Below the pieces are notes generated by a model that was given only the letters and a program-made list of their open reading frames with translations, did not search any database and was not told the DNA's origin. A stretch of 64,000 nucleotides of DNA from Neelides folsomi (taxonomy: Eukaryota; Arthropoda; Collembola; Neelipleona; Neelidae). Positions 19,664 through 46,950 of this stretch are shown in pieces (positions within the stretch are counted from its first letter, which is position 1; each line of letters starts with the position of its first letter). The stretch lies in NCBI GenBank assembly GCA_034687125.1, contig JAQGBZ010000017.1, positions 186,001-250,000 on the forward strand, read 5' to 3'. A program made the position numbers and the translations under genes.

Positions 19664-22600
19664 ATGGTGAACGAGGGCAAAGGTAGCCGAACAAAAATGT
19701 TCGTTATCAAGAGGAATGGTCGTCCGAATGAAGAAGTCCATTTCGATAAGATCACATCGAGGATTGAGAAGTTGTGCTATGGGCTCAACATGGACTTCAT
19801 TGATCCGACCGCAATTACCATCAAGGTCATCAACGGAATTTACTCTGGGGTCACGACGGTCGAGCTTGATAATTTGGCGGCTGAGACGGCTGCAACAATG
19901 ACAACAAAGCATCCGGACTATGCTATTCTTGCTGCGAGAATCGCTATATCCAATCTTCATAAAGAAACGAAGAAATGCTTTTCTGGTTTGCTATATCACT
20001 ATATCCGATACCAATTTAATAAAATTAATAACTACATTGATCATATTTTTAAATGTTAATTAAAATTACTTTAGATGTGATGACTGACCTGTACAACATG
20101 GTCGATAATAGCAGTGGTCTCAGAGTGCCCATGATATCCGAAAAACATTACAAGATTATAATGACCCATTACGACAAGCTTAATTCTGTCATTGTTTACG
20201 ATAGAGATTTCTCGTACAACTACTTTGGGTTTAAGGTGACGTTTTTTATAATTAACTTTAAGTATTTGGTTATTGTTTAATTTAATCAATGCATAATGTT
20301 ATTAAACAAAATTAATTCAATTAGACTCTGGAGAGATCATACCTATTGAAGATCAATGGGAAAGTTGCTGAACGTCCTCAACACTTGCTGATGCGAGTAT
20401 CTGTCGGCATTCATGAAAATGACATTGAATCGGTGATTGAGACCTACAACCTTTTGTCAGAGCGATGGTTTACTCATGCTTCTCCGACTCTTTTCAATGC
20501 AGCCACGAATCGTCCTCAACTTTCATCATGCTTTCTTTTAACGATGAACGAGGACAGCATCGAGGGAATTTACGATACTCTCAAGCAAACGGCTTTGATT
20601 TCCAAAGCCGCTGGGGGGATTGGTCTGAATGTTCATTGCATTCGTGCCACTGGATCGTATATTGGAGGAACGAACGGAACTTCTAATGGACTTGTTCCAA
20701 TGTTGAGAGTCTTTAATAACACTGCTCGATATGTTGACCAAGGAGGAAATAAGGTGATTAATTAAATCTACAATATTGCCAGTTAATTCGTTGATTGTGT
20801 GATTGTGTAAATATTGATTAATTCTTAATCTTATAGCGCCCTGGAGCTTTTGCCATTTACCTTGAACCATGGCACGCTGACGTATTTGATTTCTTGGACT
20901 TGAAGAAAAATACCGGATCGGATGAGAACCGTGCAAGAGATCTCTTTTATGCCCTTTGGATTCCTGACCTCTTTATGCGTAGAGTTGAAGAGAACGGAAC
21001 TTGGTCACTTATGTGCCCTAATGATTCCCCAGGTCTCTTCGAAGTATGGGGAGAGGAATTCGAGGAGCTTTATCTCAAGTAAGATATTAAACGAAATGTT
21101 GAAATATGTAACTAAAAGAGGATAAAAATGATCAATTGCACTTTTTTTATATAAAATTCTAGATATGAAAAGGAAGGCCGATTCCGTAGACAGGTCCCGG
21201 CCCAAAAACTCTGGTATCACATTATTGAGGCTCAAATCGAAACTGGAACTCCTTATATGTTATACAAAGACGCTTGCAACCGGAAATCTAATCAACAAAA
21301 TCTTGGAACAATTAAATGCTCTAATTTGTGCACCGAGATTATTGAATATTCTTCAAAGGATGAAGTACAATAAATATAAAAATTTATTTACTCAATTAAT
21401 TTTCCTCCTAATAATTTTAGAAATCAAATATTATTAAATATTTAGAAATTAAACAATTGATTTTTCTCATAGATTGCCGTTTGCAATTTGGCTTCAATTG
21501 CTCTTAACATGTATGTGAAACCGGATAAGACATATGACTTTAAGAAATTAAAAGAAGTGGCAAAGGTCGCCACAATCAACCTCAATAAAATCATTGATGT
21601 GAACTATTACCCAGTGCCAGAGGTATATAAAATTGATCTATTATTTTTGTTGAATTATAATTTTCTTATTAATTATTTATTTATTTAAGACTGAACGATC
21701 CAACAAGCGACACAGGCCTATTGGAATTGGTGTTCAAGGACTTGCCGATGCTTTCATTCTTATGAGATTTCCATTTGATAGCGAGAATGCAAAGAAGCTC
21801 AACATTCAGATATTCGAAACGATTTATTACGGAGCACTTGAAGCGAGTATGGAAATTGCAAAGAGAGATGGACCATACGAAACCTATGAAGGTTCCCCTG
21901 TCAGCAAAGGGGTAATATTTCTAATTTAAAGAATGATTTTCATAGTTATGAGGGTGATTTTAATGAATCGATGTCATTAATATTTTATCTTTTATACATA
22001 GATTTTGCAGTACGACATGTGGGATGTTGTTCCAACCGATTTGTGGGATTGGAAGGTTTTGAAAGAGAAAATCGCTCTTCATGGAGTCAGAAATTCTCTT
22101 CTCGTCGCTCCAATGCCAACGGCCTCCACAGCTCAGATTCTCGGAAACAATGAATCCATTGAGGCATACACTTCAAATATTTACACTCGTCGTGTACTTT
22201 CTGGCGAATTTCAAGTATATAAAAACATGTTTAATTTTGTTATGATTCTTATGATCAATTAGCAAATGAGTTATGATCCTAATTAATTTAATTACATTCA
22301 GGTGGTCAATCCTCATCTTTTGAAAGATCTCACCGAACGAAACTTGTGGAATCCTGATATGAAGAATAAAATGATATCCGAGAACGGTTCCATTCAGAAT
22401 ATTGATGAGATCCCCCAAGAAATTAAAGAACTTTACAAAACAGTTTGGGAAATTAAGCAGAAAGCGATCATCGACATGGCTGCTGACCGAGGAGCTTTCA
22501 TTGATCAAAGCCAATCCCTCAACATTCACATTGCTGAACCCAATTTCGGAAAGATGAGCTCGATGCATTTCTACGCTTGGAAATTGGTAATAAGTTATTT

Positions 22601-38853: not shown

Positions 38854-40327
<1,474 letters not shown>

Positions 40328-43300
40328 ATGTGGACAAGAAAATTAGTTTTCACTTGGAGAACAATTGAGCCGGTGAAAGCAAGAATCAAGAAACAATATG
40401 AAATAGGGCGCTATTGCATGAGCGCTAAATCAAATCCATGCAATTCATTTATTCGTCTTTATTTCATCATGATAGGATTTCTAAAAATTTTACTTCGGAC
40501 CCAATATCAAAATTTAAAAAGTGTTAATTCACTTCGTAATTACGGACATCAATTGTCATTAATACGACCCATCGCCACATCTCCTCAATTAAAAGCTGGT
40601 CCTGAAATGTAAGATTCTCATATCCAAAATAATATCACAAAATCTCATTCATTTTCATTATCGTAAATATTTTCGACTTATCAACTTGTACTTTGGAACT
40701 TTTGTTCAATGATGATTTTAAATTAAGAAAATGATTATATTCATTTATTTTAATTTTAGGATCGGTTTTAGCTTCATAAGACAAAATGGAGAAGTTGTAA
40801 AAACCAAAGGGAAAATAGGAGACAATATTCTCGACGTGGTGGTAAATAATAACATAGACATCGACGGTTTTGGTGAGATTTTAATTTTAAATACAATTTA
40901 ATATATAATAATTTTAAAGTCAGTTAAAAAGATAAAGATTCGTACATTTATAAATTATATCACAATTTCAGAACATGGGTAATTTCAAGGATGGTAATTT
41001 TATAAAATGTGTAATCTCTATTTAGGTGCTTGTGAAGGAACTCTTTCCTGCTCGACTTGCCACCTCATATTCAAAAAAGACGTTTATGACCAAATCGAAG
41101 AGAAAGTGACCGAAGAAGAACTTGACATGCTTGATTTAGCTTATGGACTCTGTGATACGTGAGTTTAAAAACCAATTAATTAACTAAATACATTTACATT
41201 AACCAATTGTGATTTATTTATCAATGTAATTATTTTATAGAAATACAACATTTATTATCAGAATTACACTTAATTCTTGTGTTTTAACACTGTTTAAGAG
41301 GAATTTTTACATTTTATTGTTGAGTATCGGGTCAAGTTTTCGAAAAGTCATGAGTGTATTTCTAAACCATCCCAAAGCTACATTTTTCCTTAATTGTGTT
41401 GAGCTAGCTTCATCGTAAGTGTAATTAAGCGCTTTCATTTTTTGAATTACATAGTCGTTGTTCCGATTATTTACATGTCCACTTCCACTTTGACCAACCG
41501 TGGCCCAACTTATAACAGCTCCTTTCCTATTCAATCGATCAATGTTTTGAAGATAAGTTGATTCAAATTTAACTGGGAGATGTTCTCCGACCTCGAGTGA
41601 TAGAACCCAATCAAACGGGAGAAAATTGATTTCTTTCGTAAAATCCAACACGGCACATTGTCCTTTAGAAAGTTCTTGACTGTCCGGATTCCCATCATAA
41701 CATCTCGAAATAAGCCCGTTTGAGCAAAAGTATTTCGTATATAATCCCATTCCTCCTCCCAAGTCAATTATATCATTTGCTCTTTCCAGTTTAAAAAAAT
41801 TCGTCAAGCCCTTGGCTAAAGGTTCATCGAATAAATGCCATTTCCCAGATCCATTTCCTGACCAATATCCACGATCTTTGTCGATAGCAAAATCTAAAAA
41901 TTCTCACATTTACAAATGAGAACTATTATTGTAGTTTAAATTGAAGGGTTTTTTCATTATTAAAAATTACCAGTTTTATTTTGCACTTTCACCTTTGCCT
42001 TTTCTTCAGCAGATTTCTTTTCGAATTTACCATATTCTTCTATGAGCTTATCCACTGATTCTAACCATTTGATTAATGTTTCATTTACCAATATTTTATT
42101 CTTGAATTTGATTCGAGTAAGATCATTATTCATCAATTTAAGAAGGGAAGCTTTCCGGCTTTCTGTGTTTCTTCAATCAAGATAAATTGTATGAATAAAT
42201 GAATATTAAAACAATCTTATAAATAATAATACTTTTAAAGTTAGATTCAATATTATATTTCAATTGACAATTTTTATAATTTTTATTTTACTCTTTCAAA
42301 GCTTGCGTCAGATTCGATTGAATGGTCCGAAATTCCTGTTTTATATAAATAGTCCATATCCCCATACAAAAAAATAATCCAAATATGAAAAATATATAAC
42401 CCGGAACTTTTCGTGAAATAGCCATAGGGTTTATCATTTTCAATTCCCTCACCATAAATGTATTTAACAGTTTATTCAAATTTAGATTGTATTAAATAAA
42501 AATTATCAGGGATTGAATGAAACGATGTACATGAAAGTTTTTTGTAAAAATTTAGTCTATAACACTAATAAAATTTACTCGTGTATTATATGACATGACT
42601 GCCAGAGAGCATGATTAAATAGCGCATCAATTCTTACTATTATTGAGAATTGTATTTAAATATTTTTTGAAGCTAACAATAATTCTACTTGTATCAGTAG
42701 TGAGTACGAGTAGTGTAATAAATAATTGAATACATGGATAAGATATTTTAATATTGACACTGTTCATACTTAAATTGTCTGGTTTTGTGCTCACACAAGA
42801 GTAAATAATGGTAATAAAATGGATTATAGTACACAGGTAGTAATGGTGCGTACACAAATTCTTGTTTCTAGACTAATATTTAATCATACTTACATGTCTT
42901 TAATCTTGATTTATTACTCTTTAAAAAACATTATTCTTGCTTATAGGAATAATTCTTATTCTTGATACCTACATTATATAAATGGTACTTATTTCTATCA
43001 TTAGATTTAATTAGTTTTGCACAAAGAATCCCATTGTAGATGCCTCATTATAAATTATGAAAGTGAAATTATGTCCTTTGTCAAAATTAAGTAAGAGTTT
43101 CAGATCTCAGATCTCACTCTCATGTGTGAATGCCTATTACCGACAAATTATTATATTGTAGGAATATTATGTTTCTTTTATTCTACAATATCTTTGTTAA
43201 ATTTTGACACAATCTTTCGAAAAACCATGATTGTATTTTTAAACCAACTCCAAAAAGCATAATCTCTTAATTCTTGTGAACTAACTTCATCATACGTGTA

Positions 43301-46073
43301 ATTGAGTTCCTTCATTTTTTGAATTACATAACTATTGTTTCGATTATTTACGTGTCCACTTCCGCCTTGACCCTCAACAGCCCAACTTATCACAGCCCCT
43401 TTCTTATTCAATCTATCAATGTTCTTCAAATACATTGACTCGTACATTTTAGGCAAATGCTCTCCGACCTCAAGTGAAAGAACCCAGTCATAGGGAAAGA
43501 ATTGAATTTCCTTTGTTAAATCCAAAACAGCACAGCGTCCTTCAGATATATCTTGTGAGTCTGGGTTCCCATCATAGCAGCGAGTGCTGAGGTCTCTTGT
43601 GACAAAGTACTCGGTGTATTTCCCCATTCCTCCTCCAAGGTCTATTACATCTGTCGCTCTTTCAGATTTAAAGAATTTTAAAAGTTCTTTTGCCAAAGGT
43701 TCATCGAATATGTGATAATTCACCGAATCATTCCCAGACCAGAATCCACGATCTTTGTTGATGATAAAATCTAATAAATTAAAATAAATTACTTTTCATC
43801 TTATCATCTTCTGTAATACTTTAACTTTTAAGTAATACCAATTGGTACTTTTAAATAGTTCGTTAGTTGAAATAAGAATTTGATTTTGTAAGAATTATCG
43901 GTGTATATGGTAGTACCGTAAAGTTCCGATATCTGTCCGGGGTTCAATATGTGTCCGGGGGGTAATCATGAGATTTTAAAAGGTGTCTGGGTCTCAAAAG
44001 GTGTCCGGGTCAATACATTTCATGTGCAACATTCAAATATGAATAGCACTTAAACCTTAAATCGATCCTTAAATATCGCTATTTCTTTGTTTGTGCTTTA
44101 AAATTCTTTAAATACAATGCCAAAACGACAATTTAATGTAGAATTTAAACTGAAAGTTATACAATATTCGGAGAGTCATAGGGGAGAAGTCACGGCACAA
44201 CATTTTAAAGTTGAGACAAAAAGTATTCGACTATGTAAAAAACATAAGATGGAGCTTGGTAGGTTAATTTACCCGCTATTTAAATTATTTATCATATTTA
44301 ACACATTGCAATTTCTAAAATAATATACTTATAATTTGATTCAGAAAAATTGAAAAGATTAATTTTATATATTTGTGTCCGGGACTCGATATGTGTCCGG
44401 GGGTCATATGCATAATTTTAAAAGGTGTCCGGGGGACAGATATCGGAACTTTACGGTAATTAGGTATTTTACTATCTGATTCCAATTTCAGTCTTTCTTG
44501 TTCTGATTCTTTATACTCTAATAGGATTTGATCCACCGATTTAACCCAATCAGCTAACGCATCTTCTGAAGTTTCATTCTTAATTTGAACTTCGAACGAG
44601 TCTGGTTTAATAACATCTACATTGTCAAATTCCTTCTCCGTGATTCTGAAAAAAAATATTTATGACTTGAAGTTATTTTGTAATAATTTAATGTTAAATG
44701 GTACTTACAGTATTATCTATAATTGTACATACCAAGGTATACCTATAAAATATTCTAAACAATAAAATTTATTTATTTTCTTACTCATTCAATGTCAGGT
44801 TATTTTGGATATTTGGAAATTCTTGAGTGAAATGAAAACTCCATATCCATAAGCAAAATACAGTGCCAAAGATTGTGATCAATATGCTTCGAAAAAGACG
44901 AGTAAACTTTTTTGAAATTGGCATTGTCAATTATGCACAACTTTTTGAATAAGTCAAGGATTAAATTAAAAAATTAAATTACCACTTCTTGGAAATAACC
45001 TCACTATTCCCAATTATATATTCGTGTATCACATTTTAATTAAGATTTTAAAGTCTTATTGAAGTCATAATATAATAATTTAAATGCTCTTTATTGGTTA
45101 ATATTGAGCTAAAATTGTCACAATGTTAAAAAATGAATAAATGAACAAAACACAATAAATCACTAAAAACTATTAAAGGGCTTAGAGCACATGATGTAAT
45201 TGATTTTAATAGTATTAAAGTTTCTAATCGACTTTAGATTAATTTAATTAAAGTAAAATTTAATCCCTCTCCTTGTAAGAGAAGTTGAGGAGTAAAAGGA
45301 AAAAAGAGGAAAGAGGAAAAAAGTATCAAAACCGTTCATCGAATTCATTCAAAAGGCGGATATATTTGAATGTGATGCCTCCTCCAACAGTTCTCTATTC
45401 TAAACCTACACCAACCAAGGAACGATATAACTAAACTTATAAATGGAAGCTTTGGAGCATTTAATCATGGGAAAATGTGAACTATACAAAAATATACTCA
45501 CCGTTTCTCAATTTCTTTCTTTGTGCTCAATTGTAGTGCATTGGACTTTGGGAATACATTGTACTCCATAATAGTACATCTACCTAGTTTGTACTATACG
45601 TACTGATATATAAGATAGGTAGTAAGAATACATTATTTAAGGTAAGGTACCTTACATACTTTAGGAGTAAAACACCTCCTTTTGACACATGTTCTAACAG
45701 GACATTGTGTTAATCTGAGCATTCAACCATGAAGTTCTAACCCTACTATAGTGGAGAATAGCCCAAAGAAAGAATCACCCAAGCATAGGCCAATTCTATT
45801 TAACTTCATTCTGACATTGACATTCGCTTCTTTTTGCAAATCTCCACGCAGCAATTACATATAAGAAAATAAATGAAAATAATATAAAATATGTTATGAG
45901 ATATATGCAATAAAGTTCAAATCTTTTCTGTGCCAATTTGATATACTTTTTAACATGAAAAATTGACTTTGTCCCATTTCAGATCGCGACTAGGATGTCA
46001 AGTTTGCTTGACAAAGAAACTTGAAGGGATGGAAGTTCAAATACCTGCCGGCGTTAATGACCAAAGAAGTTGA
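40328..46073 (+). CDS. FDX1: Mitochondrial [2Fe-2S] ferredoxin, adrenodoxin (FDX1) type
   Basis: Electron carrier between ferredoxin reductase and mitochondrial P450s, also implicated in lipoylation. Exons: 40328-40608, 40760-40872, 41026-41158, 45983-46073, giving 205 residues from 40328, or 158 from the ATG at 40469 ([20 protein letters not shown]). The second start is more like a normal targeting peptide. Cluster ligands are [16 protein letters not shown] (C-x5-C-x2-C) in exon 3 and LGC in exon 4. [17 protein letters not shown] and [16 protein letters not shown] are the FDX1 rather than FDX2 pattern. The last exon, with the fourth cysteine, lies 4.8 kb away across an intron containing two opposite-strand methyltransferase genes. 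It fits exactly in phase (GATAC joined to A-TCG) and ends GVNDQRS. Without that splice the protein would lack its fourth ligand. Confidence 0.92.
41307..42479 (-). CDS. Membrane-anchored SAM-dependent methyltransferase-like protein, copy 1
   Basis: Unnamed methyltransferase-like family. Exons in coding order 42479-42292, 42170-41971, 41893-41307 give 324 residues. An N-terminal anchor ([20 protein letters not shown]) follows a short basic segment, so a type II topology with the domain in the secretory lumen is likely. A coil-like linker leads to [20 protein letters not shown] and the SAM-binding core: motif [50 protein letters not shown] and [20 protein letters not shown]. The substrate is unknown. 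The gene lies wholly inside FDX1 intron 3, antisense, and is a tandem duplicate of the gene at 43178-44924 with the same intron phases (2, then 1). Start choice between the first ATG and the internal ones upstream of the anchor is open. Confidence 0.8.
43178..44924 (-). CDS. Membrane-anchored SAM-dependent methyltransferase-like protein, copy 2
   Basis: Paralogue of the preceding gene. Exons in coding order 44924-44785, 44645-44473, 43770-43178 give 301 residues. Start [20 protein letters not shown] is followed by a hydrophobic stretch ([19 protein letters not shown]) that should act as signal anchor. The catalytic part repeats the family blocks: [72 protein letters not shown], and [20 protein letters not shown]. 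The intron phases equal those of copy 1. Intron 2 is inflated by the pogo-like element at 43914-44458, which the splice sites at 43771 and 44472 remove. No frame damage is seen. It is nested antisense in FDX1 intron 3. Confidence 0.8.
43914..44458. mobile_element. Pogo-like Tc1/mariner element, non-autonomous, 545 bp with TA duplication
   Basis: TA flanks both sides. The ends are perfect 23-bp inverted repeats (43916-43938 and 44434-44456) starting CCGTAAAGTTCCGATATC. Inside each end are several copies of a tgtccggg motif: about four on the left and three on the right, all in the same orientation and often preceded by gatatc, atatg or aaaagg. This fits subterminal transposase-binding sites. 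It sits in intron 2 of the nested methyltransferase gene and keeps a short helix-turn-helix reading frame at 44117-44323, but no DDE domain. Confidence 0.85.
44117..44323 (+). pseudogene. Remnant transposase N-terminus (pogo/CENP-B-type helix-turn-helix)
   Basis: The frame starts [20 protein letters not shown] and continues with [20 protein letters not shown]. This is the pattern of the first DNA-binding helix-turn-helix of pogo-like transposases and related domesticated proteins (a basic start, FKLKVI, a recognition helix around TKSIRLxKK). After about 48 residues the sequence loses similarity and the frame ends. The DDE catalytic domain is missing, so it cannot mobilise itself. The rest of the frame is AT-rich. 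Confidence 0.65.
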
Positions 46074-46950
46074 TAAATTGATGTATCTACATAATACCAA
46101 TCTACATTAGAAAGATTCCTATATTATACAAGACACTACCAATAAAATTATGATGCCATTATGACTGAAAAGTGTAAATTATTTTTATCAAAGGTAATTT
46201 AATTAGGAAATTTTAATTTAAATAAATTATTCACGGGTTTTATTTATAATATTATACGAAAAAATATATATGGGAGCTTTTAATCAAAAACCATTTATGG
46301 TAAAAATGAAATTTTGAGTTTCCAGAGATTTCCATATTTTTATTTAATTCACATTTAATAAAAATTACTTGATACAGGAAGTAAATCAACAAAAATCTTT
46401 ATCGTTATTATATTAAAACACATTCAATCTTGTTCATTGTCAAAAACAATACAATTACCGGAAAATAAAATTTAAGAAATCGAACTTCTTGTTTGAACGA
46501 TTGTAAAGCAAAGTATATCATAGTTTATCATTTAAAAGCTATTTATTTTTTTAACATGCCCCAAGTTTGTTAATTCACCCTCCATAACAAAAAAAATTAA
46601 TGAGACGCGAATTAAATATAATTTCGGAAATCTCTGGAAACTTAAAATTCAAAATTTCATTTTTACCATAAATTGTTTTTGATTAAAAGCTCCCATATAT
46701 ACCTACTTACTTGTAATATTCATAATTAAGCATGTTGACCATACTATGTATATAAAATATGTAAATATTCTCTATCATGACATGACTATCACTAATGCAA
46801 ATTGCACTAATTTAATAGATAAATTTATTATCAAATGATATTTAATATTTGTTAAAGATTTGAAATATAATCATGATTTTACTTAATTCACATTAATTCT
46901 TTTCATTTAATTGGCAAAAATGATTATAATATCTCAATAAAATTAATTCA
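46074..46950. other. Convergent intergenic region FDX1 / CFAP70
   Basis: AT-rich sequence between the FDX1 stop and the CFAP70 stop. About half is taken by the long inverted-repeat element at 46265-46701. The rest holds AATAAA-like signals for both genes and no ORF. Confidence 0.6.
46265..46701. mobile_element. 437-bp long-inverted-repeat (foldback/MITE) element
   Basis: Arms of about 70 bp (46265-46333 and 46626-46701) are inverted copies that start TATATATGGGAGCTTTTAAT and include tttatggtaaaaatgaaatt and tttccagagatttcc. They carry one mismatch and a small insertion in the right arm (extra gaatttt...aa). The interior is AT-rich and non-coding. The TATA ends would fit a TA-targeting element, but the family is not recognised and the ends differ from the pogo-like elements in this window. 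Confidence 0.8.

Follow-up and report, generated by a model that had tools for sequence, protein, structure and literature searches.

Two methyltransferase-like genes in the long last intron of a springtail FDX1 gene: a probable case of antisense nesting

Does the last exon of a small ferredoxin gene of the springtail Neelides folsomi really lie 4.8 kb downstream of its neighbor, beyond two genes of the opposite strand, and if so, how did this intron come to hold them? The locus is part of a 64,000-nucleotide stretch of DNA, here called the window. Our analysis indicates that the arrangement is very probably a genuine one of host and nested genes, in which splicing of FDX1 bridges a last intron of 4.8 kb that holds two antisense, tandem, methyltransferase-like paralogues, MT1 and MT2 (Table 1).

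Table 1. Features of the FDX1 locus, in window positions.
Feature	Position	Strand	Remarks
FDX1 exon 1	40328..40608	+	leader; translation could in fact start at a later ATG
FDX1 exon 2	40760..40872	+	splice model and adrenodoxin alignment
FDX1 exon 3	41026..41158	+	carries three of the four cluster cysteines
FDX1 last intron	41159..45982	+	4,824 bp, GT-AG
Poly(A)-like signals for MT1	41213..41256	-	two AATAAA within the FDX1 intron, with first letters at 41256 and 41218
MT1	41307..42455	-	exons 42455-42292, 42170-41971, 41893-41307; 316 aa, methyltransferase-like
MT2	43178..44924	-	exons 44924-44785, 44645-44473, 43770-43178; 301 aa, methyltransferase-like
Transposon-like element	43914..44458		545 bp, in MT2 intron 2; its terminal inverted repeats are perfect over 25 nt
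FDX1 exon 4	45983..46073	+	fourth cluster cysteine and stop TGA

The FDX1 gene and its last exon

The FDX1 model is one of 16 open-frame splice combinations printed and was picked for its gap-free alignment with adrenodoxin at the junctions. Its three introns of 151, 153, and 4,824 bp are all of the GT-AG type, with the donors GTAAGA, GTGAGA, and GTGAGT and the acceptor ends TTTTAG, ATTTAG, and TTTCAG, and the spliced product, to which exon 4 is joined in phase, consists of 205 amino acids. Residues 93 to 204 align to bovine adrenodoxin (E about 1e-44) across the junction at the long intron, and an N-terminal extension precedes this adrenodoxin-like region. In the PDB, adrenodoxins match best, with 155.9 bits, Ferredoxin-2 reaching half of this value (78.5 bits), and by these bit scores FDX1 is closer to adrenodoxin than to FDX2; the Pfam family Fer2 is matched at 22.8 bits, slightly above its cut-off of 21. 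Four cluster cysteines with the spacing CX5CX2C...C are present, a ten-residue stretch of exon 3 and SRLGCQVC of exon 4 being aligned to their counterparts in adrenodoxin, and we take these cysteines to be the ligands of the cluster. In sequence, therefore, the protein resembles known adrenodoxins (FDX1), and what is unusual here is only the structure of the gene, with its 4.8-kb last intron.

The preliminary description of this DNA had stated that exons 1 to 3 end at 41158 without the fourth iron-sulfur ligand, that a remote last exon beginning at 45983 joins them in phase, and that the other introns measure about 150 bp. All three statements hold, as the intron lengths given above and the alignment crossing the junction attest. 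Exon 3 read straight into the intron meets a stop codon immediately, which leaves a product of 176 amino acids lacking the fourth ligand. In order to judge exon 4 against chance, all AG sites between 41159 and 64000 were read in the required phase (n = 1,203) and scored against the C-terminus of adrenodoxin. The acceptor at 45983 scores 94 and the runner-up among these sites 17, while 100 dinucleotide shuffles yield a top score of 28 (mean 18.6). Best scores of the AG sites in the other two phases are 20 and 15, and in none of the three phases does an acceptor of this range offer an alternative last exon with a score near that of exon 4. A motif scan of the three forward frames between 41159 and 50000 likewise has exon 4 as its sole match.

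When the assembly is searched in six frames with the FDX1 protein, six rows are returned, namely the four exons described here and two weaker ones on contig C335, and a second FDX1 exon 4 was not found in this search of the 75-Mb assembly. The rows on C335 belong to a separate FDX2-like gene (L019, C335:8773-9550), in which an intron of 251 bp also separates the last ligand, near the position seen in FDX1. An old intron common to both genes was considered and rejected, as the last intron of the C335 gene lies 11 nt further on (hand count) and differs in phase. Another match to Fer2 (L001, C55:24862-25023) is located within an open frame of 1,325 codons, unlike the intron-rich genes found elsewhere in the assembly.

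The nested pair and its relatives

The coding sequences of MT1 and MT2 are situated entirely inside the FDX1 intron, and each gene possesses an ATG, two GT-AG introns, a stop codon, and a fully open frame, the intron phases (2 and 1) being identical in both. Their last exons share 68.6% protein identity over 194 residues (dS 1.36), their first exons are 56% identical over 27 residues, and their second exons are hardly similar (27% over 56 residues, E 0.04). The dN/dS ratio of 0.164 for the last exons shows, at the level of sequence, that MT1 and MT2 are under purifying selection, and they look like old, functional duplicates. In both proteins an N-terminal hydrophobic stretch is present, with best 19-residue Kyte-Doolittle means of 2.09 and 1.89. 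An MT1 transcript would reach both AATAAA signals before FDX1 exon 3 and could end at either of them, which hints at a separate transcript.

Two complete antisense methyltransferase genes had been described in this intron; the two complete minus-strand genes stand, and their name rests on weak profile matches. MT2 matches the Pfam family Methyltransf_23 at 20.8 bits, under the cut-off of 27, and the last exon of MT1 has no Pfam match at an E-value of 0.001. Among NCBIfam profiles, MT2 obtains one row far under the cut-off and MT1 none. For MT2, a tRNA-methyltransferase family of PHROG also gives 5.5e-7 and a further methyltransferase 4.4e-4, and a comparison of MT2 with PDB sequences gives no match up to an E-value of 1. 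A stretch IDLGGGMG is presumably the cofactor-binding motif of SAM-dependent methyltransferases. As MT2 remains below the curated cut-off and the last exon of MT1 is without a match, the family is named methyltransferase-like only, and tentatively so. MT2 thus resembles SAM-dependent methyltransferases of the Methyltransf_23 type by weak profile matches, whereas both MT1 and MT2 differ from them by their N-terminal hydrophobic stretch.

With the last exon of MT1 as query, six places are found in the assembly, consisting of the two described here, three further copies on C472 (72%), C671 (59%), and C334 (56%), and a short, weak match on C343. As far as last exons are concerned, the copies on C472, C671, and C334 are open, and a possible exon 2 is seen at C472. 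The piece on C343 (L014, C343:46402-46551) is short and degenerate and, judged by eye, looks like a relic of the family. Among the ten pairs formed by the five copies, silent divergence is lowest between MT1 and MT2; five of the ten pairs are saturated and the others exceed 2. At the protein level, MT2 is closer to the C472 copy (74.6%) than to MT1 (68.6%), and for this reason a recent local duplication is a poor simple fit. Local duplication followed by later exchange, or a faster change of MT1, could account for the closeness of MT2 to the C472 copy.

Length and growth of the intron

For comparison, introns were sampled by matching three conserved families exon by exon, retaining 41 introns with well-joined flanking pieces and leaving out gaps in which profile residues were missing between the pieces. 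For the chaperonin, 27 of 29 rows were used, giving 22 gaps of which 19 were kept; for actin, 36 of 41 rows entered, giving 27 gaps with 21 kept; ribonucleotide reductase contributed three rows and one gap. The sampled introns have a median of 105 bp and a maximum of 1,173 bp, one exceeding 1 kb and none reaching 4 kb, in a sample drawn from conserved genes that may not be typical and in which short introns inside stop-containing pieces are missed. Against these 41 introns the last intron of FDX1 is an outlier, and its length fits the earlier proposal of an enlargement by insertion of the nested genes, which we consider plausible. About 1.9 kb of the intron, however, lies outside both MT gene spans and is single copy, so that insertion of the genes alone does not explain the whole length.

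As the MT genes have kept their introns, arrival as a copy of a spliced RNA is unlikely. The intron segments 44931-45982 and 42460-43177 match only themselves in the assembly in a search that passes over simple repeats and highly frequent words, and thus no mobile element carrying the pair is seen. Neither was a larger duplicated block found in the 9.9-kb stretches around the C472, C671, and C334 copies, where the sole long similarity to the FDX1 intron is the methyltransferase-like exon.

Intron 2 of MT2, which would measure 157 bp without it, contains the transposon-like element of Table 1. Its terminal inverted repeats start and finish in TA, a pattern that would agree with a TA target site. 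With 39 matching pieces in the assembly, obtained from 27 scored candidates and counting the element itself, it combines terminal inverted repeats with multiple genome copies and is classed as a TIR DNA transposon. An intact transposase is absent from the element, which contains one short open frame only, with no Pfam match, and it therefore appears to be a non-autonomous relic. By eye, the end of the element provides another GT donor, which is in phase with the original and lies 18 nt beyond it.

Reading of the locus and comparison with known nested genes

In the reading that we favor, the pre-mRNA of FDX1, an adrenodoxin-type [2Fe-2S] ferredoxin, would extend over the nested pair and be spliced from 41158 to 45983, while MT1 and MT2 would most likely be transcribed the opposite way from their own promoters and end inside the intron, an overlap that seems to be tolerated. 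The intron would once have been short and have grown through the arrival, as a DNA copy, of an ancestor of the nested genes; this ancestor may then have been duplicated in place, and MT2 may later have acquired its transposon.

Exon 4 might owe its place behind the nested genes to a misassembly, or FDX1 might have been broken by a rearrangement, and a draft of 840 contigs (75.1 Mb) leaves some room for such errors. Exon 4 is found, however, on the same 459-kb contig as exons 1 to 3, on the right strand, in phase, and with matching splice sites; it shares conserved sequence with adrenodoxin, and a search of the assembly found no other copy, all of which makes an artefact of this kind extremely unlikely. 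A decay of the nested copies into duplicates without function would be in line with the transposon in MT2 and with the short relic on C343, and yet both reading frames are fully open at a low dN/dS, and the transposon is intronic, with both splice sites of that intron still there; we regard decay as improbable, although less so than the other alternatives.

It is also conceivable that FDX1 mainly yields an intron-retained or early-polyadenylated transcript and that exon 4 is rarely used, given the stop codon directly 3' of exon 3, the 13 sense-strand AATAAA motifs in the intron, and the connection of nested units in human genes with intron retention and cryptic polyadenylation that one study describes (PMC3192792). 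The product of 176 amino acids would be without the fourth ligand, the conservation of exon 4 is good, and AATAAA is common by chance at the G+C content of the window (35%), so this is very unlikely to be the main fate of the transcript. No more credible than an assembly error is the idea that antisense transcription of the MT pair controls whether the FDX1 pre-mRNA reaches or includes exon 4. If true, this would act as a switch that decides whether a functional ferredoxin or a shortened protein unable to hold its cluster is made, and expression of the nested genes would lower mitochondrial ferredoxin. Transcriptional interference at the locus is possible in principle, and as the exon cut off by the intron is precisely the one that carries the last Fe-S ligand, any such interference would be biochemically readable.

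Returning to genuine nesting, FDX1 with its MT pair is a clear but ordinary case, opposite-strand nesting being widespread in animals. Nested genes make up about 6% of the genes of Drosophila melanogaster, 2.1% in Caenorhabditis elegans, and 0.5% in human according to PMC3786989; PMC10282587 gives 12.4% for a glass sponge whose 80-Mb genome has short introns, 5 to 10% as typical values, and almost none in several genomes, a spread that is blamed partly on the annotation method. PMC8467205 describes nested genes as lying mostly on opposite strands, with an expression divergence linked to interference in Drosophila, not in mammals, and the typical internal gene as short and without introns, in long hosts with many large introns. 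Against this last description the FDX1 locus is slightly unusual, since its host gene is small, the other introns of the host are short, and the two genes within it lie in tandem and consist of several exons each. According to PMC3786989, 2mit in an intron of Drosophila timeless2 is likewise a complete coding gene on the opposite strand within the intron of an unrelated host. Unlike it, FDX1 holds two tandem, intron-bearing paralogues and is a small host whose other introns measure about 150 bp. Our literature search for nested FDX1 or adrenodoxin genes found no report. The locus alters no general idea; it offers a clean case in a genome in which most of the introns sampled are tiny, and automatic annotation could truncate FDX1 or lose the nested genes here.

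Some features flank the gene. Just 3' of FDX1, a second inverted-repeat element (46265-46701) is found, with arms of 57 nt that are 96% complementary and a spacer of 323 nt. Further upstream, the window contains a gene for the large subunit of ribonucleotide reductase (20523-22586) with closely spaced pieces of the Pfam family Ribonuc_red_lgC. Head to head with FDX1, on the minus strand at 38854-40328, a tRNA synthetase of class I, W/Y type (Pfam) is encoded, which we take to be the mitochondrial WARS2. The first ATGs of this gene and of FDX1 are just 46 bp apart, and a shared promoter, or a later start of FDX1, is therefore likely.
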